NCBI GenBank assembly: GCA_008933615.1
Contig: WBUR01000005.1
Location: forward strand, 1 to 64,000
DNA from: a bacterium
GTDB lineage: Bacteria > CLD3 > SB21
Direction of reading: 5' to 3'
Length of the DNA: 64,000 nt
The notes below the pieces were generated by a model, which saw nothing but the letters and a program-made list of their open reading frames with translations, made no database searches and was not told the origin of the DNA. Both the position numbers and the translations under genes were made by a program. Shown here in pieces: positions 50,617-61,961 of this stretch (position 1 is the first letter of the stretch; every line of letters starts with the position of its first letter).

Positions 50617-51210
50617 TTACAAAGCATTAAACTTGTTTTTAGTCACATAACTGTTGCCATGAATAAAGAAACGCCAGCGTTTGTCAACAGCATATTGAAT
50701 GCCGATGCGAGGGGATCTTTTGATTCTGAAACCGGCGTAACCGTCATCAACAATGAACAAAGTGTTCCCCAAATAATCTTCCCCATTCAAAGCGAGATTG
50801 ATTGACATCGCTTGGCATAATTTTCCAGGCCCGTTTGCGAGGTCTATTGTTTTTTCAATATGGCGCCGCTTTTTCATAACGCCGATTCCGTCCAAAGGTT
50901 CCAATGCCCGGATCAGGCAAGCCCCGGCAGTGCCGGTCCTTTCCGTCACTACATTCACGCAAAAATACATGCCGTAAATAAAATAAACGTACGCGTGCCC
51001 TGCCTCGCCGAACATGAGGATATTGCGCGGCGTTTTTCCCGGATGCGCGTGCGACGCCGGGTCGTCGGCATTACGATAGGCTTCAACCTCTACAATACGT
51101 CCGGAGGTTACCGTTTTACCTTTGATGCGAACAAGAATTTTCCCAAGCAGGTCCGGCGCCACATCAAGAGTAGGGCGGCTATAAAAAGAACGGGGGAGCT
51201 TAGCGGGCAT
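50617..51210 (-). CDS. 3-methyladenine DNA glycosylase (AAG/MPG family)
   Basis: A 197-residue enzyme: FYSRPTLDVAPDLLGKIL at the start, RIVEVEAY (the catalytic glutamate), HAYVYFIYGMYFCVNVV, GPGKLCQAM near 145. It removes 3-methyladenine and other alkylated bases in base excision repair. ATG 51210 is chosen; longer in-frame reading runs through the upstream gene. It overlaps the end of that gene by 11 bases, so translation is coupled. Confidence 0.93.
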   Translation of the reverse strand: MPAKLPRSFYSRPTLDVAPDLLGKILVRIKGKTVTSGRIVEVEAYRNADDPASHAHPGKTPRNILMFGEAGHAYVYFIYGMYFCVNVVTERTGTAGACLIRALEPLDGIGVMKKRRHIEKTIDLANGPGKLCQAMSINLALNGEDYLGNTLFIVDDGYAGFRIKRSPRIGIQYAVDKRWRFFIHGNSYVTKNKFNAL

Positions 51211-53014
51211 GATTGGCGGATTTTTGCTTACCGAAATTAACGTTGATCTCGTCGAGAAGAAAATCGACCTGGTGCAGAAAGCGCTCCGACGCGCATCCGC
51301 GGCGCTTACATTCACGGCACGGTATCTTTAACTTACACTCCACGTCGTTTTTATGCGCAGCTTCAATTTCGCCAAAGGCTTCATATAATTCGCTTTCAAT
51401 GGCTTCCATTTTCTGTTTGGAATTAGTTTCACTGATGAGTTTCGTCCATTTCATGCGAAGCATTTCCTCGAGGTCCTTGACACGTCCCAGAAATACGCTG
51501 ATGGTGGCGCGCCATATCATGACGGCTTTATTCAGTATTTCCTCATCGACGTCTTCGGCTTTTTGATTCTCCTCTTCGAATTTGAAATTTTTCAAATCCA
51601 AAATATGCTGCACCATGCCTTGAATTTCTTCAATTTCACTGAAAACTTCTTTTTTCGTGTCTCCGTACAGGTCTGTAACAGAGTGATCAAAATGTTCGAT
51701 CGCTTTTCGCAGCACGCCCTGCGTCACCGTCACCGCGCTCTGCTCCAGGTCATTGGATTCCTGGGCAAACTGCTGAAGATAGTTTAACGCAATGCGAAGG
51801 TTCTGCGCCGCTTCTTTTTCATTGTTAATTTTTGAATAATTGAGCGATTGAAAAATGACATCGAAATACGCATTGATGCTGACTTCGATTTCTTTCATTT
51901 TTTTATTCAGCTTTTCGGCTCCTTTGATCCGAATTTCCTGCGCCCGCGCCTGAATTTGTTTGTTCGGATGCCTTTCCAGCATCTTCAAAATCGTTACCGA
52001 AACATGGCGCGGAGTAGAATCGTCGCTCAGCAAATCAAATATATCATCCAATGACAAAACGTCCTGCGCAATATCGCTGACCGCTTCATCATTTTCCAAA
52101 TGCATGTACACGATCACACTCAAATTGAAAAAGTCAGACGGATCGTCTTTACTCTTTTCGAGGGTCTTAAGTTTTCTCTCATTTAGGTCGGCGGTCAAAT
52201 CCGCTTCAATTTCAATTTCTTCTTCCTCTTCCATCATTTTGCTGGTGTCTTTGGAAGTAAGAATGATCTTGACGGCGGACTGCATGATATCAAAAAACTC
52301 GTTGCCCAAAAGCGTCGGTTGCCTCTGCCGCATTAAATCTGCAAATTCATCGCTTTTAATTATTTTTTGCAGAAATTTGATCGACATCATGGAAATAACA
52401 TTGGCGGCAGCTTGTCGGATCTGCGGATCTTCGTCAATAAGATACGAAAACAAAATGGCCGCATTTTCAATACTCAGGCTCTGGAAAGCCAACCCGTGAA
52501 TTTCCCTCGCCTTGACAATGCGCCGGCTGCGGCGTTTCATCACACGTTGCGCCGTTTTTAATATCTTATCGTCTTCACGATCGATGTCGCGTTCCTTGAT
52601 CAGATTGATATAATCCATCAGAACTTTTGTCGGAAGCCTTGGATTATTGAAGACAGCGTCCAATACCTCAAGGTTTTTTTCAAACAACAAAAATACCATG
52701 AGATTCTGGCATTCCGAATCGCGGGCAAATTTTAGTCTTTCCAGCTCGCTGAAATCAAGCACCTGAATGTAACGTCCGACGCGGGTCCAGAAGGTATCGT
52801 TCTGGATGGTCATTCGTAATTCAACCGGCTGATCCAGAAAGTTTCGGTAAACGTCGAGTTGATACGGCAGCGGCAAGCGGTAGTATTTGGTTAGAATTTC
52901 TTTCAGAGCCGCGCTTTCGGATTTCGACAGCTTCGCATCCGTTTGCTCCAACGCATCGGCCTGCGCGCGCAATGCAGAAAGTTCTTCCTGAGTTTGTAAT
53001 AATGATTCGTCCAT
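51200..53014 (-). CDS. Helical repeat-like protein, unknown
   Basis: A 604-residue soluble protein, almost all helix. The middle part (about 90-370) resembles HEAT-like repeats (DEDPQIRQAAANVISMMS, TPRHVSVTILKMLERHP). An acidic stretch EEEEEIEIEAD is at about 255. A cysteine set near the C-terminus (CKLKIPCRECKRRGC) could bind a metal. No enzyme motif is seen. It begins before, and overlaps, a DNA-repair glycosylase gene. A scaffold role is plausible. Confidence 0.75.
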   Translation of the reverse strand: MDESLLQTQEELSALRAQADALEQTDAKLSKSESAALKEILTKYYRLPLPYQLDVYRNFLDQPVELRMTIQNDTFWTRVGRYIQVLDFSELERLKFARDSECQNLMVFLLFEKNLEVLDAVFNNPRLPTKVLMDYINLIKERDIDREDDKILKTAQRVMKRRSRRIVKAREIHGLAFQSLSIENAAILFSYLIDEDPQIRQAAANVISMMSIKFLQKIIKSDEFADLMRQRQPTLLGNEFFDIMQSAVKIILTSKDTSKMMEEEEEIEIEADLTADLNERKLKTLEKSKDDPSDFFNLSVIVYMHLENDEAVSDIAQDVLSLDDIFDLLSDDSTPRHVSVTILKMLERHPNKQIQARAQEIRIKGAEKLNKKMKEIEVSINAYFDVIFQSLNYSKINNEKEAAQNLRIALNYLQQFAQESNDLEQSAVTVTQGVLRKAIEHFDHSVTDLYGDTKKEVFSEIEEIQGMVQHILDLKNFKFEEENQKAEDVDEEILNKAVMIWRATISVFLGRVKDLEEMLRMKWTKLISETNSKQKMEAIESELYEAFGEIEAAHKNDVECKLKIPCRECKRRGCASERFLHQVDFLLDEINVNFGKQKSANHAR

Positions 53015-54040: not shown

Positions 54041-54616
54041 TTATAGCGTGCGGCTGCCGGGTTTGACGGCCGGAAGTTCGCCATTTTTACATAGCGGACA
54101 TTCCCGCGGTTCGTATTTTACAACGTCCACGGACACGAGAGAATATTTCGGCACGCCGAATTCCACTTTTCCGTTACTTCGGTCGACCAAAAATCCCACG
54201 CCGATCACGTTGGCATTGGCGTCGCGGCATAACTGCACGACCTCTTTGATCGAACCGCCCGTCGTGACCACATCCTCAACCACCAGCACGTTTTCATCGC
54301 GTTTGATCTCAAAACCGCGCCGAAAACTCATTACGCCGTTTTCCCGTTCCGAAAAAACACACCGCGCATTCAATGTCCGCGCTACTTCATGGCCGACAAT
54401 GATGCCGCCAACCGCCGGTGCCGCAACCGCATGAATTTTGTGGTCTTTGAAGAACATTGCGATCTCCGCGCACAAGATCTGCGCCCAATTCGGGTACTGC
54501 AATACCTTGGCGCATTGAAAATAATTAGGACTGTGCGCGCCCGACGTCAGGATGAAATGCCCTTCCAGTAGAGCGCCGCTTTTACGGAAAATATCGAGTA
54601 CTTCGTTATCATTCAA
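54041..54616 (-). CDS. pyrE: Orotate phosphoribosyltransferase
   Basis: A 191-residue type I phosphoribosyltransferase: FILTSGAHSPNYFQCAKVL near the N-terminus, the PRPP loop VLVVEDVVTTGGSIKEVV (about 109-126), and a C-terminal cysteine-containing extension ECPLCKNGELPAVKPGS typical of many PyrE. It makes orotidylate from orotate and PRPP. The start is TTG 54616 with GGAGGA about 9 bases upstream. It follows the pseudo-GH2 gene by 17 bases. Confidence 0.94.
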   Translation of the reverse strand: MNDNEVLDIFRKSGALLEGHFILTSGAHSPNYFQCAKVLQYPNWAQILCAEIAMFFKDHKIHAVAAPAVGGIIVGHEVARTLNARCVFSERENGVMSFRRGFEIKRDENVLVVEDVVTTGGSIKEVVQLCRDANANVIGVGFLVDRSNGKVEFGVPKYSLVSVDVVKYEPRECPLCKNGELPAVKPGSRTL

Positions 54617-54633: not shown

Positions 54634-57318
54634 TTATTCATAAGAATAATTTTTGCTGTCGTGAATTTCTTTTACGTATTCCATAATATTGAAAAAATCG
54701 TATTTCTTGGAGTATGAATAACTTGACGTAAAAATCAAGATCAGCCATAAGCCGCCATACACCACGACTACTTTTAACCACGAAACATCGTAGAGAATTT
54801 TGAGAATACGCATCAGACGAACGCAGTGCCAGAGGATCATGGCAAAAGAAATCCAAATGGAAAGATAAAGAAAAACGTCGACTTTCATTAAGCGCTGAAA
54901 GAGGATCACGCAGGGTATCAGGAATAAATAATGAGAACTGCTCCACAAACCCGCGATGAGCGACTGCTGGAATGACAGCGGTTTTAAAAAAACAAAACTA
55001 AGCAGTTTGATAATAACAGAAATGATCAGGAACGCAAAACAAAAAATGAACCAAAACTGAAATACAAACGCTTCCGGGCTCCATGCCAGTCCGTCTATCC
55101 AGCCTTTCAATGTATCGGCCACGATCCCGTTGGCCATCACTTCGTCAAATATCTGATGTCGGCGCAATTCGTAAAAAAGAATCGATAGATGAGAAGCCAG
55201 CGCAAGACTGCTGAGAAATCCGATCACAAGCGCCGGCCATACCGTGATAACACGGCTTTCACGAATATCGCTGTAAAAACTTAAAATTTTCGTGATCGAT
55301 CTGAAAACACTGTTCTTGAATTTTCCGCTTTGACGGTAAAAACTTATAAATACGATAACAAGCAGAAGGCCCATTAACGGATATGTTTTGGGATAAATGG
55401 TCTGATACGACCCTATTGCGATGGCATCGAACTTGTCATCACTGTAAACCGATTTGGCAATGTCATAAGCAAATCGATCTTTGCGGTCATAGGTGACAAG
55501 GCCGGAAGTGTAAATAGTCGCGTCGTAATGCGGATTAGCGTGAACATAAGGCCGGTTCACGGAAAAGTCATTATAGGAACGAATGAGTCCGCCCGCAACT
55601 TTCCATTCATCAAGTTTCTTGTACATATCCACTATGTGTTTGGCCTGGAACTTGGTCGACATCGGGTCGCTGTAGCCGTTCTGATTGTTAGAAAATATCT
55701 GAGCTCCATACAAGCAGATCACTGCACGGTTGGGCCATCGCGATAAGCTTCTGTTGATAAATGAATTGATCCAGAGAGGATTATTTCCGCGAATATCCAA
55801 ATTGATAATATCGACATTATCGAGATACGTGTCCTGGCTGCCAAGTACCGAAGTGTAAAAAATAGGACGATCATCCAGCGTTCGTATCCATTGGGTCAGA
55901 GTTGAGAAATAATCCAACGACGCCTTCTGACTGTGATCCGATGCGCTGCCCACGCCCCATGCAATAATACACGGGTTCATCCGGTCATACTGAATCATGG
56001 ACTTGAAATAGCTCTTCAGGTCTTCCACATAGGCCGGCTGCTGAATGACATTAGTAGTCAGACTATGCAGCGGCGCTTCGTACATAAGGTACATGCCATA
56101 TCGGTTGCATAGTTCTATAAAATAGGGATGCGGCGGATGATGCTTAAAGTAAATAGTATTGGCTCCCATTTTCTTGATCTTCTGAATATCCTGCTCCATC
56201 ACCGCATAAGGGATGCTGTTTCCCGTTCCTGGAAAATCTTCATAATAAACCACGCCTTTGATACTTAAAGGCTGTGCGTTAAATAACAAATACTGCTCAT
56301 GCGCCTCGGACCTGGCAATTCCGAGCTGCGTGGAAACCTGATCCACCATCTCATTTCCGATCATGATGGAAATAATGAGTCGATAACGGTAAGGATTTAC
56401 CGTCGCCCAAAAAATAGGTTTCTCTATGGTAAAACGAGTGTCAAAATTTGTAAAATTCGTAACCGAAACCACATTTTCCTGATTCAATTCTCTAATCTTC
56501 GGTATTTCCCAGACATTACGGTAGCGTTTGTATCGATTCGTATAAACAGGTTCAGGGTCTTCTTCATTAAATATTTCTATAAGATAACGGACATTCTCGT
56601 TTTTATTAATAATTCCCGCGACTCCGGATGTGTCCTTGATCTGAAAGCCAAAATCATAATTGCGCAATTGTAAATTCAAAACCATATCGCAGCTTCTTTG
56701 ATCCGCTGCGATTTCGTATGCAACATGATATTTGCTTATAGCTAATTTAGGCGTCGCGATGAGAAATATTTCTCTGAAAATCCCGCCGTATAATTTTGGT
56801 TGGAGCGTTCTGGCATAACGCGGTATACCCGTGCGCGAGTCCAAACGGCTGTCTACGACAATTTCGATCGTGTTGGGTTCTTCCGCATGGATCAGCGTTT
56901 CATCAAGATCTATTTCCGTATGCAGATAAGCGCTGTTGACATTGGCGATAAAGTCGCCGTTGATGCGTATCTCGGAACGAAAGTTGATGCCAAAGCTGAC
57001 CAAACGAAAGTGCTTGTTTCTGAATTCGGGCCCCGGAGTAAATGTTTTTCTGTAAATCACTTTCCCTTCGTAATCGTAATTACTGGGAACATTGATCGAA
57101 CGGGTAACGCCGTCGATGGTGATGGTCCATTCACCGGACAGATCAAGCAGCAGTCGCTGCTCCGAAAGAGATAGATGGTTTATCAACAACTGTTCATCAT
57201 ATCCGTTTTTATCGCCATAAAAACGAATATCATCTTCAGCGCGCGCTAATGAACCAAGAATCAAGAATGGAATTAAAATAATAATGAGCAACTGCGGATA
57301 AAAGCGATGCATATTCAA
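54634..57318 (-). CDS. GH2-like membrane protein lacking catalytic glutamates
   Basis: An 894-residue protein. After a signal peptide (LLIIILIPFLILGSLARA) come the GH2 jelly-roll sugar-binding domain (LSGEWTITIDGVTRSINVP, about 62-180), an immunoglobulin-like domain and the TIM-barrel region (340-600). Two normally invariant glutamates are missing: the acid/base motif WSLGNE reads WGVGSA, and the nucleophile motif ends in ICLYGAQ with no Glu. From about 640 to the end are about seven TM segments. Inferred: a catalytically dead carbohydrate-binding or sensing protein anchored in the inner membrane, or a permease-like fusion. The start is TTG 57318 (GAGGA 5 bases upstream) or ATG 57312. Confidence 0.8.
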   Translation of the reverse strand: MNMHRFYPQLLIIILIPFLILGSLARAEDDIRFYGDKNGYDEQLLINHLSLSEQRLLLDLSGEWTITIDGVTRSINVPSNYDYEGKVIYRKTFTPGPEFRNKHFRLVSFGINFRSEIRINGDFIANVNSAYLHTEIDLDETLIHAEEPNTIEIVVDSRLDSRTGIPRYARTLQPKLYGGIFREIFLIATPKLAISKYHVAYEIAADQRSCDMVLNLQLRNYDFGFQIKDTSGVAGIINKNENVRYLIEIFNEEDPEPVYTNRYKRYRNVWEIPKIRELNQENVVSVTNFTNFDTRFTIEKPIFWATVNPYRYRLIISIMIGNEMVDQVSTQLGIARSEAHEQYLLFNAQPLSIKGVVYYEDFPGTGNSIPYAVMEQDIQKIKKMGANTIYFKHHPPHPYFIELCNRYGMYLMYEAPLHSLTTNVIQQPAYVEDLKSYFKSMIQYDRMNPCIIAWGVGSASDHSQKASLDYFSTLTQWIRTLDDRPIFYTSVLGSQDTYLDNVDIINLDIRGNNPLWINSFINRSLSRWPNRAVICLYGAQIFSNNQNGYSDPMSTKFQAKHIVDMYKKLDEWKVAGGLIRSYNDFSVNRPYVHANPHYDATIYTSGLVTYDRKDRFAYDIAKSVYSDDKFDAIAIGSYQTIYPKTYPLMGLLLVIVFISFYRQSGKFKNSVFRSITKILSFYSDIRESRVITVWPALVIGFLSSLALASHLSILFYELRRHQIFDEVMANGIVADTLKGWIDGLAWSPEAFVFQFWFIFCFAFLIISVIIKLLSFVFLKPLSFQQSLIAGLWSSSHYLFLIPCVILFQRLMKVDVFLYLSIWISFAMILWHCVRLMRILKILYDVSWLKVVVVYGGLWLILIFTSSYSYSKKYDFFNIMEYVKEIHDSKNYSYE

Positions 57319-57338: not shown

Positions 57339-58250
57339 TTAGATGATTCTTTTTCCGAAAAACGAAGCCATAAGCTCTACCCCGATCTTGGCGGTTTGAT
57401 TTTTCGTATCGAGAATCGGATTGGCTTCGACAAATTCGGCAGATACTACGCGTTTACAATTATGCAGCGATTCCATCACATAATGCGCCTCGCGGTAGGT
57501 CAGGCCTCCATGAACCGGAGTTCCGACTCCGGGTGCTACCGACGGATCAATGCTGTCGGCATCAAAACTAAGATGGATACCGGCCGTGTCCCCGGATGCG
57601 ATTTGAATGGCCTTTTCAATAATGTCATGAATACCTTGTTCGTCAATATCCCGCATGGTAAAAACGGTCACGCCCATTTCACGGATATGGTTGATCTCAC
57701 CCTGATCCAGCGTCCGGATACCCACCAATACCGTGTTGGACGGATCAACCTTAATAAAACTTCCTCCAACCGAAGTTAATTTAGGGTGGCCTACGCCCAT
57801 GGAAATAGCGAGCGGCATCCCGTGAATATTTCCTGATGGCGACGTTTCCGGTGTATTCATGTCCCCATGCGCATCTACCCAGATAACCCCGATTTTCTTA
57901 TGTTGTTTTCTGAAATGAGAAGACACCCCGGCTAAGGTTCCAATGGCAATCGAATGATCGCCGCCCAGGATCAGAGGAAATTCGTGATCGTGAAAACTTT
58001 TTTCAACCGCATCCGACAGCGTGGTTACGGCCCTGACGATCTCATTGAGATATTTGAGACGTTCATGGCCTATTCTTAGAATTTCCGGGGTTTTCGATAC
58101 GATATCCCCGCTATCCTTGACGGTATAACCTAATTCATTTAGACGTTCCCTTAGGCCAGCGATACGCATGGCCGAAGGACCCATATCGGTTCCGCGTCTT
58201 CCTGCCCCCAAATCCAAAGGAACACCGATTAACCGTATTGTACGCATCAT
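57339..58250 (-). CDS. rocF: Arginase
   Basis: A 303-residue ureohydrolase: GGDHSIAIGT (about 97), WVDAHGDMNTPE (about 125) and SFDADSIDPSVAPGVGTPVHGGL (about 230) hold the two-manganese ligands. GAGRRGTDMGPSAMR near the start fits arginases (RocF) rather than agmatinases. It splits arginine to ornithine and urea. Together with the catabolic glutamate dehydrogenase this fits amino-acid use. ATG 58250 with AGAGG upstream. Confidence 0.93.
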   Translation of the reverse strand: MMRTIRLIGVPLDLGAGRRGTDMGPSAMRIAGLRERLNELGYTVKDSGDIVSKTPEILRIGHERLKYLNEIVRAVTTLSDAVEKSFHDHEFPLILGGDHSIAIGTLAGVSSHFRKQHKKIGVIWVDAHGDMNTPETSPSGNIHGMPLAISMGVGHPKLTSVGGSFIKVDPSNTVLVGIRTLDQGEINHIREMGVTVFTMRDIDEQGIHDIIEKAIQIASGDTAGIHLSFDADSIDPSVAPGVGTPVHGGLTYREAHYVMESLHNCKRVVSAEFVEANPILDTKNQTAKIGVELMASFFGKRII

Positions 58251-58662: not shown

Positions 58663-60360
58663 CTAATAATCAAGCTTATAGCCCATAAGAAAGCGGTTTT
58701 GTATAGCAGTGCGATTTCGAATATGTTCAAAACCCTGAATGTGTGTCCACTGATAGATCAAGTACAAATATTGTTGGCGAAACGTTTCCCATTGGAATTG
58801 GGTGGAAATAATATTTTTGGTTTCATTAATGCCCTGCAGAAACGTTTTGTTTTGTTTTCCGGGTGTACCTGCATCCACGAACCCGTCCTCATAGCCAAAT
58901 ACTTCTATATTACCATTGCCGTGACGCAATAATTCATAATTTAATCCAAAAAATAGTTTTCGCATCGGACGATATCTGATTTCGAAAAAATAGTCATCGG
59001 AATTGGGCGGAAGGGACGACCCAATACTGGAACGAAAATGGGCATAGTTAAGAAGGCCGTATTTGTGAGAATAAACGTACGGTTCGATTCTGGAATATTC
59101 AAACCGGAAATCGGTATCCTGCACATTAAACGGCTCAACCCAATAAACGCCGGCCATTACGGCCCAAGTTTGCTTCCAATAAGTAAATGGATTTCGGACA
59201 GTAGTAAAATCGTCAAGGTATAATGCAGCGTAGGCCTTGACGTTTGGAACCATAAAAGCAGTCGCGTCAAAACTCATCGTATTATTGTCTTTATCTCCGA
59301 GATATTGTTCTGAAATATGATACGGAATGATAGGGTTCAAATACTGAATTTCAACGTCCCGTCCACCGTATATCACGCTTTCATTACCTGCCAGAAAGAA
59401 CCAGGGCAAAGCTTTCCATTCCAGCCGGTGCGCCACGATATACTTCCTATCGCTGGCATCTCCTGCGCCGTTATAGACAAGTGGTTTACTCCGGAGCCAA
59501 CCGTGCAAATAAGTGAACTTAAGTCGATCAAACGTGACGTCCAACCTTAAATTATCAAAAGCGCCTGCATTTTCGGATAGAAATAAATTGGAGTGTTTTC
59601 CGGGGCCAATAATAATAGGATCTTTCCCAAATTGAAGTCGAAACCATTTTGGCTCAATGACAAGATAGGCGTTTGCGTTTAGGGAATATACGTTGTCACT
59701 TGATGGATTATAATTTATTACGCCACCCTGGCTGCTTTCGCCAAAACGATAAGCCTTGTCCGATCCTTTGATTAGCGTGCTGGAAAAATCTGAATAAAAT
59801 GCAATGGTATTTTTTAATACGCCGCGCACACGCCCGGAAGCACGAGTAAAGCTAACTGCTTCATTTATTGTGTCTTCCTGCCCTCCATACCGGTTGATAT
59901 CCACCGCCTGTTCAAGAATAGCATCTCCGAGAACATAACTCATGCCGCCAGAAATATCCGGTTCAAAATCGATAATGTGTTTTTCAATTTCGTCAACCGA
60001 GACATCATTGCTCGTCTGTTTCAATTCAAAATGAAATTCGCCTTTGAGTTTTTGAAAGAGCCCCATTTCCGATCGGGAAAGTAACAGCGGGTTATTGGTT
60101 AACTTTTCGTCTAATTCAATGATGATTTTTAGAACGGTATTACGGGTATACGGTTTATTGCGTAATTCGATGGACGGAGCAATGACATTCTTCGCCTCGA
60201 GTTTTTCTATGAAATCATATACAAAATGATATAGTGGAAGATTGACTGACGGAGTGGTTTTACCGCTTTCTGAAATGATGTTTTCCTGACCTTGGCCTAA
60301 CAGAGAAAGTGTGCAAAGAAACATCAAGAATCCGGATACAGACCGTTTAATTTTGAACAA
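58663..60360 (-). CDS. Capsule assembly Wzi family outer-membrane protein
   Basis: A 565-residue exported protein (signal peptide FLMFLCTLSLLGQG). It has the Wzi-like beta-barrel pattern: alternating aromatic strands ending KLDY, with LQFGKDPIIIGPGKHSNLFLS (about 245-265) and NPIIPYHISEQYLGD (about 340) as family-typical motifs. Known: Wzi anchors capsular or exopolysaccharide at the cell surface. The location beside a sugar-transferase and GDP-fucose genes fits. The C-terminus ends in an aromatic residue, as barrel proteins do. Confidence 0.88.
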   Translation of the reverse strand: MFKIKRSVSGFLMFLCTLSLLGQGQENIISESGKTTPSVNLPLYHFVYDFIEKLEAKNVIAPSIELRNKPYTRNTVLKIIIELDEKLTNNPLLLSRSEMGLFQKLKGEFHFELKQTSNDVSVDEIEKHIIDFEPDISGGMSYVLGDAILEQAVDINRYGGQEDTINEAVSFTRASGRVRGVLKNTIAFYSDFSSTLIKGSDKAYRFGESSQGGVINYNPSSDNVYSLNANAYLVIEPKWFRLQFGKDPIIIGPGKHSNLFLSENAGAFDNLRLDVTFDRLKFTYLHGWLRSKPLVYNGAGDASDRKYIVAHRLEWKALPWFFLAGNESVIYGGRDVEIQYLNPIIPYHISEQYLGDKDNNTMSFDATAFMVPNVKAYAALYLDDFTTVRNPFTYWKQTWAVMAGVYWVEPFNVQDTDFRFEYSRIEPYVYSHKYGLLNYAHFRSSIGSSLPPNSDDYFFEIRYRPMRKLFFGLNYELLRHGNGNIEVFGYEDGFVDAGTPGKQNKTFLQGINETKNIISTQFQWETFRQQYLYLIYQWTHIQGFEHIRNRTAIQNRFLMGYKLDY

Positions 60361-60560: not shown

Positions 60561-61961
60561 CTAATATCCCTTCGTGTCCCACTTGAGCATTTGCCAGACT
60601 GTCATGAATATGATTTCAACATCAAGGGAAAAAGACCAGTTTTCTATATACCAAATATCATGATTAACGCGTTTTTGCATCAAATCCGGATCTTTAGTTT
60701 CTCCGCGAAACCCATTCACTTGCGCCCATCCGGTAATTCCCGGTTTCACAAGATGGCGCAGCATATAATTATCTATAATGTTTTTCGATTCCATATTAAG
60801 CGGCGTCGGATGCGGACGCGGACCGACAACGGACATTTGCCCTTTTAAAACATTCCAGAATTGCGGAAGTTCGTCCAAATTGGTCTTACGTAGAAATTTT
60901 CCAAGCGATGTGATACGCGGGTCGTTCTTAGTAGCCTGTTGGTATTTTCCTTCGCTGTTGGTATCCCGACTGTCTGAAACCATGGAGCGGAATTTGTAAC
61001 AAGTAATTTTTTTGTTATTTCGCCCCCATCGCTCTTGTTTAAAAAATACCGGCCCCTTCGAAAACAACTTAATAACTATTGCAATTAACGGAACAAGCCA
61101 TGAAAGAAAGAATACGATCATAACAAGCGAGAATAGGGCGTCGAACGCACGCTTTAAGACATACCAATGCATCTCGTCTAACTTATCTTTCCGAACTGAA
61201 ATAACCGGAAACCGGTCAAACATGGTGATCTCAAACTTGTCGGAAATAAATCTGAAATAATCCGGAATGATCTTGACACGTGTGGTATGACTGGTACACG
61301 TTTTTATAACCTCGTCAATTTTTTCAACCGCATAAGCCGGCAACGCAATAATCACATCATCGACCGGGTGATCGGTAAGCATTTTTTCCAGTTGATCTAT
61401 GGTTCCAAGATATTGGCCATTGAGCGATGTTTTGCTGTGATCATCCAAAAACCCGACAAGTCTGTAACCAAAATGCGGATTCGTAAGAATGGATTCATGA
61501 AAACTTTGTCCAACTTCTCCTGCGCCAATAATAAGAATATTTCTTAAATTTCTTCCGCGCTTTCGAAGCAGATACAAAAATCCTCTTAAAAGAAATCTTT
61601 CAAATGTCACAAGACTGAGCGACCCGATGGCGTACATTAAAACAAATGAGCGAGATAACGGATGGTTTTTCATTAAAAACAAGATCAGAATCGCCGCAAT
61701 TACTTGTATTAGTACGTTCTTGATCAAACCGATAAATTCAATTCCAAAAGAACGGGAGCGGAATTCATCATACAAATTCGTTATACGCGCTGAAAAAAAC
61801 CAGATAAGTATCAATGAAAAGGAAAGAAAATAGTCGCGAGTGGTAAGTTCAATGGCATTGCGGGTTGCAAAATAGTTTGCAGCTGATATAAAGGCTATGA
61901 GGATGGCCGCTATATCTGCAGTGAATCGAAATACATAGAGAGACTTGCGATGAATATGCAT
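60561..61961 (-). CDS. Undecaprenyl-phosphate sugar phosphotransferase (WbaP/WcaJ type)
   Basis: A 466-residue polyprenyl glycosylphosphotransferase. Four or five TM segments in the N-terminal part, a Rossmann-like CoA-binding fold ([20 protein letters not shown], about 137-156), one TM ([19 protein letters not shown]), then the catalytic domain with [34 protein letters not shown] and VGPRPHP, ending [10 protein letters not shown]. It transfers the first sugar phosphate (glucose or galactose type) to undecaprenyl phosphate to start exopolysaccharide repeat synthesis. The sugar is not certain. Confidence 0.93.

Follow-up and report, generated by a model that had tools for sequence, protein, structure and literature searches.

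The window, as we call the whole 64,000-nucleotide stretch of bacterial DNA analysed here, encodes a GH2-like membrane protein without either catalytic glutamate, which belongs to one clade, spread over several bacterial phyla, in which a broken GH2 module is joined to a shared membrane tail. The family is real and widespread, and the protein is probably a non-hydrolytic binding or scaffold protein of the inner membrane. The open reading frame (54637..57318 on the minus strand, stop codon 54634-54636, 894 amino acids) lies exactly where the initial annotation had drawn it, at 54634-57318, and has homologous full-length frames in relatives; its start codon is TTG, with an ATG two codons downstream.

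The protein begins with a predicted signal peptide (residues 1 to ~27; 57238..57318, minus strand) containing a hydrophobic segment at residues 6-24, whose end, in the sequence ..GSLARA/EDD, was placed by eye. Three domains follow in GH2 order according to Pfam, an AlphaFold2 model and Foldseek, all encoded on the minus strand: an N-terminal sugar-binding-type beta-sandwich (residues 75-190; 56749..57096), an Ig-like domain (residues 280-334; 56317..56481) and a TIM barrel (residues 341-626; 55441..56298). It had been claimed that the sugar-binding domain and the barrel were kept, and this is borne out, the barrel being strongly recognized (PF02836, E 2.1e-22) and the other domains more weakly: PF00703 scores above its cut-off (E 9.6e-6), as does PF22666 (29.6 vs 27 bits), and PF02837 remains slightly below (27.4 vs 28 bits). 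In a Foldseek search, the AlphaFold2 model, built with 29 sequences (mean pLDDT 82, pTM 0.80), matches GH2 structures; its ten best rows have target-normalised TM-scores of 0.72-0.83, including 0.81-0.83 to 6ncw, 6xxw and 6jz4, and the PDB sequence matches listed for the protein are GH2-type beta-galactosidases, glucuronidases and a galacturonidase. The window protein therefore shares its three-domain fold with the GH2 glycosidases (beta-glucuronidase, beta-galactosidase and beta-galacturonidase); unlike them, it is devoid of both catalytic Glu, carries a six-helix membrane tail and belongs to a family that falls outside the 12 intact GH2 enzymes used for comparison, which came from other genomes and have no membrane tail by hydropathy.

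Structure prediction, which had been proposed as a check, places the two missing catalytic sites at the ends of barrel strand 4 (residues 451-458) and strand 7 (residues 532-537), with six membrane helices after the barrel. The first of these sites lies in the motif WGVGSA (residues 454-459), where the acid/base Glu is replaced by Ala459 (codon 55942..55944, minus strand), and the second in ICLYGAQ (residues 534-540), where Leu536 (codon 55711..55713, minus strand) occupies the position of the nucleophile. Both alignment columns hold Glu in 12/12 intact enzymes, as expected from the claim that both glutamates are missing. Judged by its sequence, the window protein cannot act as a normal GH2 hydrolase.

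Whether both positions are always non-Glu among relatives had been left to an alignment, and the answer is mixed: neither Glu is present in 78 of the 137 distinct members, but one of the two is kept in the other 59, the acid/base residue only in 31 and the nucleophile only in 28, the latter count having been obtained after one misaligned row was set aside. A relative with an intact catalytic pair, which would have pointed to decay or misalignment, was found in 0/137 members of the clade. These counts derive from 139 rows (79 with neither Glu, 31 with the acid/base only, 28 with the nucleophile only and 1 apparently with both) from which the identical copies L158 and L160 were removed. The row that seemed to keep both, L143, proved to be an alignment artefact: its Glu adjoins strand 6, and inspection of strand 7 by eye shows Lys, so its nucleophile was set to "absent" by hand for the tree and the counts of changes. 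Strand 7 was inspected by eye in the 31 keepers of the acid/base residue as well, and the nucleophile site there is Lys, Arg, Asn, Gly or Ser, never Glu. Automatic alignment of this strand is poor in the Calditrichota-type rows, where the letter counts of the nucleophile column are distorted; across the family the site is highly diverse (Arg, Lys, Ser, Asn, Gly, Leu and others). Loss of the nucleophile in every member, which was true of the first 40 (nucleophile Glu in 0/40, acid/base Glu in 11/40), was wrong for the larger set, given the 28 members that keep the nucleophile without the acid/base residue.

On the tree, at least 12 changes are required at the acid/base site and at least 9 at the nucleophile site. 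Since the half of the pair that is kept differs between lineages, the distribution suggests an ancestor with both Glu that was followed by more than one inactivation, provided that Glu was not regained; an independent-pairs test of mutual exclusion of the two Glu had no power. The retained halves also bear on whether a residual enzyme persists, in which the remaining carboxylate or another residue would support a different reaction (transglycosylation, lyase-like or phosphorolytic). Such an activity would be in keeping with the single Glu of the 59 members and with a further barrel carboxylate, Asp584, kept in 126/137; however, the majority with neither Glu includes the window protein itself, and the nucleophile site is occupied by very different residues, so we consider it quite improbable.

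The gene is present in 8/9 genomes examined from the window's phylum, the ninth being 85% complete, and an initial homology search recovered proteins of identical architecture from a number of other families. When named genomes were scanned with a single conserved stretch, 32 loci were obtained, whose hosts include Ignavibacteria and other Bacteroidota-type MAGs, KSB1, Delongbacteria, UBP11 and one Cloacimonadota-named MAG, together with a "Calditrichaeota" MAG within the window's own class. Two large groups were searched with thresholds so strict (1e-60 and 1e-100) that the prevalences obtained are lower bounds. In the phylum of genome G347, a match at E<=1e-60 was found in 21/40 genomes; taken as loci (n=20, leaving out the match in G389), 18 are members and two, L151 and L152, are GH2 proteins that are intact and lack the tail, and G347, G081 and G222 are members from this phylum that fall below the threshold. 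In the phylum of an Ignavibacteria member, 81/296 genomes have a match at E<=1e-100, and two residues of the tail, Trp792 and Arg834, are present in 81/81 of these; the FMO protein of green sulfur bacteria was detected in 4/36 of the genomes with matches that were tested for it.

Trees of the GH2 part place this group in one clade apart from the intact GH2 enzymes. A branch with support 100/100 sets the 40 core members apart, the 135 core members of a larger, quick tree do likewise (SH-aLRT 100), and the window protein lies inside the clade by its GH2 part. Loci dropped as duplicate genomes were L092, L108, L109, L112, L115, L117, L118, L120 and L121, and those dropped as broken or partial members were L122, L123 and L043. 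L100 was dropped needlessly, being of full length with strands that read GIGSD and GRYG, and the large tree was also built without L044, L151, L152 and one short row. The member of G006 is split over two contigs and stands outside all counts.

Strong purifying selection acts on the gene, which is not decaying. Against two close relatives, G001 and G002, dN/dS is 0.044 and 0.047 for the whole gene and 0.033 and 0.037 for the GH2 part, and the neighbouring genes give 0.024 (arginase) and 0.165 (pyrE) against G002. This selection, together with the recurrence of the architecture in a large clade, places the initial observation beyond chance. A functionless enzyme in decay, that is, a pseudogene in progress, or a misalignment would be in line with the missing catalytic residues and with one relative split into two ORFs, but the overall dN/dS of ~0.045, the low values of the GH2 part and the open frames across a wide clade in which the pair is always broken speak against it. 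As an intact pair was seen in none of the relatives compared within the clade, this explanation is very unlikely, close to nil, and it was rejected on the strength of the dN/dS values and the breadth of the clade. The split member, L122:10007-12482, comes from a Delongbacteria MAG and represents either a real break or an assembly error.

Conservation is not confined to one part of the protein. The residues that give the barrel and the N-terminal domain their shape are nearly constant among the 137 members (Trp64 in 131, Trp304 in 136, Asn387 in 136 and Gly606 in 134), and so are Trp792 (codon 54943..54945, minus strand; 136/137) and Arg834 (codon 54817..54819, minus strand; 137/137) in the tail, the latter being the sole position among the twelve tabulated that is kept in every member. 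Over a set of 58, the tail has the highest mean conservation (1.75), followed by the GH2 N-terminal domain (1.60) and then the barrel (1.48); the equal constancy of single residues of the GH2 part, namely Trp304 and Asn387, was counted against our preferred reading.

The state of the old active-site pocket is relevant to the proposal, already made in the initial annotation, of a sugar-recognising sensor, in which the dead barrel would bind a glycan in the old pocket and the membrane tail would signal. The logic would resemble that of the Klotho-type pseudoglycosidase receptors, membrane-anchored proteins with a glycosidase fold and without an intact catalytic pair, which have a GH1 fold and a single membrane helix and serve as animal hormone co-receptors; the likeness resides in the membrane-anchored glycosidase fold and the broken pair, whereas the window protein is of the GH2 type with a six-helix tail. 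The intact GH2 fold is consistent with a sensor, as are the capsule genes found nearby in the window's own family and the pocket residues that are constant within lineages: Arg390, His397 and Asp584 are each present in 15/15 Ignavibacteria, and Arg390 and Glu459 in 14/14 Calditrichota-type rows. Parts of the old pocket being constant within single lineages, sugar binding or residual chemistry there is possible. However, His359, Arg390, His393, Asn458 and Trp580, all fixed in the 12 intact enzymes, vary between the lineages of the family, and a search of the window protein with Pfam revealed no known signalling domain. A measure of conservation at the barrel mouth did not single out the mouth in the family; the measure failed to do so in the intact control enzymes as well and is thus uninformative. 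A sensor is a possible but less likely alternative.

The membrane tail spans residues 641-869 (54712..55398, minus strand) and comprises six helices by hydropathy and in the AlphaFold2 model; the seven transmembrane segments reported at first are reached only if the N-terminal signal peptide is counted. Within it, residues 680-863 (54730..55281, minus strand) resemble the Yip1 domain (PF04893), a domain of the eukaryotic YIPF proteins and of bacterial proteins of unknown function, although the window tail itself scores far below the Pfam cut-off (7 bits, E 6.5, vs 28.6 bits). PF04893 matches 25/29 tails at E<=10. When 20 tails were scanned singly, 15 matched at E<=1 and five had no match; fourteen of the matches score 10.5-25.7 bits and one, L106, lies above the cut-off (31.5 bits), and the matches mostly span nearly the whole profile. 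A profile of all tails aligned collinearly with five stand-alone Yip1 proteins at an hhalign probability of 44.5%, and profiles of single subgroups reached 0.2-1.1%, no better than unrelated tails (0.2 and 2.4%). No Yip1-type match was found in NCBIfam, and Foldseek found no PDB fold resembling the tail at E<=0.001; the best VIA-align matches, with Z up to 5.3, were helical bundles, among them a designed GPCR-like fold. In view of the scores below the cut-off, the weak profile matches and the lack of a significant PDB fold, we speak of a Yip1-like tail and not of a Yip1 domain, and even this label is weak. The tails of nine subgroups are homologous to that of the window family (hhalign E 2.7e-10 to 1.6e-38).

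Compared with Yip1 domain proteins, the window protein has an extra first helix and a large GH2 module that is predicted to be extracytoplasmic. The YIPF proteins, as described in PMC6682643, have five helices that start in the cytoplasm and end in the lumen. Helices 2-6 of the tail would fit this orientation if the GH2 module is periplasmic and a single helix comes before them; the loop charges agree with the proposed orientation only mildly.

Membrane tails occur in other GH2 proteins too. L040:6092-8626 and L085:4038-6659 combine an intact Glu pair with C-terminal membrane helices, and L039:8282-10771, L083:633-3122 and L084:7968-10514 lack both Glu and carry a different C-terminal membrane tail; the GH2 genes of L039 and L083 adjoin a gyrB-like gene, identified by eye. 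The tails of both groups have no detectable kinship to those of the family (hhalign probability 0.1-0.2%), Pfam found no Yip1 match in four of the membrane tails of these groups, and both groups branch with the intact GH2 enzymes, outside the family. L039, L083 and L084 appear to be a second, independent instance of a pseudo-GH2 in the membrane. Full-text literature searches, evaluated by title and the start of the abstract, retrieved no description of a GH2-membrane pseudoenzyme or of such a gene next to smc.

In the window, the gene is followed after 17 bp by a pyrE-like phosphoribosyltransferase gene (54041..54616; PF00156) and preceded, at a distance of 20 bp, by an arginase-family gene (57339..58250; PF00491, E 6.8e-80). 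Further upstream are the genes of a Wzi-type capsule assembly protein (58663..60360; PF14052, E 9.5e-23) and a bacterial sugar transferase of the capsule/EPS type (60561..61961; PF02397, E 2.7e-69), all of them on the minus strand. The order of sugar transferase, Wzi, arginase, GH2-like gene and pyrE is that of the window's family, as assigned by Pfam in the window and by eye in L031, L032 and L045, the last of which has one additional gene between Wzi and the transferase. A 604-aa protein encoded at 51200-53014 of the window is also kept in this family and has weak HEAT-like Pfam matches only. The position beside pyrE and a capsule locus, as first described, was seen only in the window's own family; elsewhere in the clade smc is the commonest next gene. 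Nothing in the data points specifically to an export system, the other role suggested at first.

The GH2-like gene lies directly upstream of smc in 97/140 loci, a figure that combines 41/61 in the first sets, after removal of same-genome duplicates, with 58/81 in the last set, two shared loci being counted once. The gap to smc is <=25 bp in 29/41 and 45/58 of these, with some overlaps that stem from uncertain starts, and the loci concerned include Ignavibacteria, the four FMO-bearing genomes, the Calditrichota-type phylum and KSB1. In the other 43/140 loci smc is not next door. This class includes L078, L107 and L123, which end within <=511 bases, and the broken L122, all counted as without smc; in the 23 such loci of the last set ~1.5 kb was available downstream of each and only the next gene was judged. 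In two of the 43, a gene with a GWxTD domain (PF20094) directly follows the GH2-like gene instead, and in six other loci a GWxTD gene follows smc; three of these assignments were tested with PF20094 and the others made with a profile built from six of them. The GWxTD gene recurs in several lineages (e.g., L036:14539-15939, L041:13500-15047 and L086:3199-4608), and a literature search for "GWxTD" returned no paper. In six Ignavibacteria-type loci (L093, L095, L097, L101, L102 and L105), the gene pair is followed, as judged by eye, by a HAD-type phosphatase gene and then by genes for a small methyltransferase-like membrane protein and for lpxB- and lpxK-like proteins, with an extra gene in L105.

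The persistence of the adjacency to smc over such divergence hints at a shared need or regulation, and old vertical inheritance of the gene order, free of any functional tie, may also explain it. One reading of this arrangement is that the protein is a functional partner of SMC or has a part in chromosome segregation, such as that of a membrane anchor or a regulator co-produced with SMC. The frequency of the arrangement in several lineages and its mostly short gaps agree with such a partnership, but the link is absent from the window's family, where smc of the window's genome (G000) is on another contig, from the Delongbacteria-type loci, which have a DUF4301 gene upstream (PF14134 in L035, by eye in the others), and from three loci with hrcA- and grpE-like genes downstream of the GH2-like gene (by eye). 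Moreover, genes that adjoin smc need not work with it, and we regard a direct partnership as unlikely.

The preferred reading, a non-hydrolytic binding or scaffold protein, starts from what sequence and prediction provide: a signal peptide, a GH2 module that is complete yet catalytically broken, with the pair incomplete in all 137 members, a six-helix tail that is conserved, and purifying selection on the gene. The GH2 module would be periplasmic and kept as a binding or scaffold surface, and the tail, made of one helix and a five-helix Yip1-like unit, would act in the membrane, by oligomerising or by relaying a binding event. The gene order suggests that an older role of the protein may have been of use in coordination with SMC and general growth; in the window's lineage the gene instead stands beside arginase, pyrE and the capsule locus. 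Beyond this, we can imagine a link from envelope to nucleoid, in which the pseudo-glycosidase would sense, on the periplasmic side, a sugar of the cell wall or one that is lipid-linked, and the Yip1-like unit would act on SMC. We consider this distinctly unlikely; if true, chromosome organisation would follow envelope growth.

Automatic annotation would probably name a protein of this kind an ordinary glycoside hydrolase. The place of the gene before smc permits a concrete and testable guess about its function, and a family that extends over several phyla, with the catalytic pair broken in every member examined and not always in the same half, offers material for the study of repeated enzyme inactivation.
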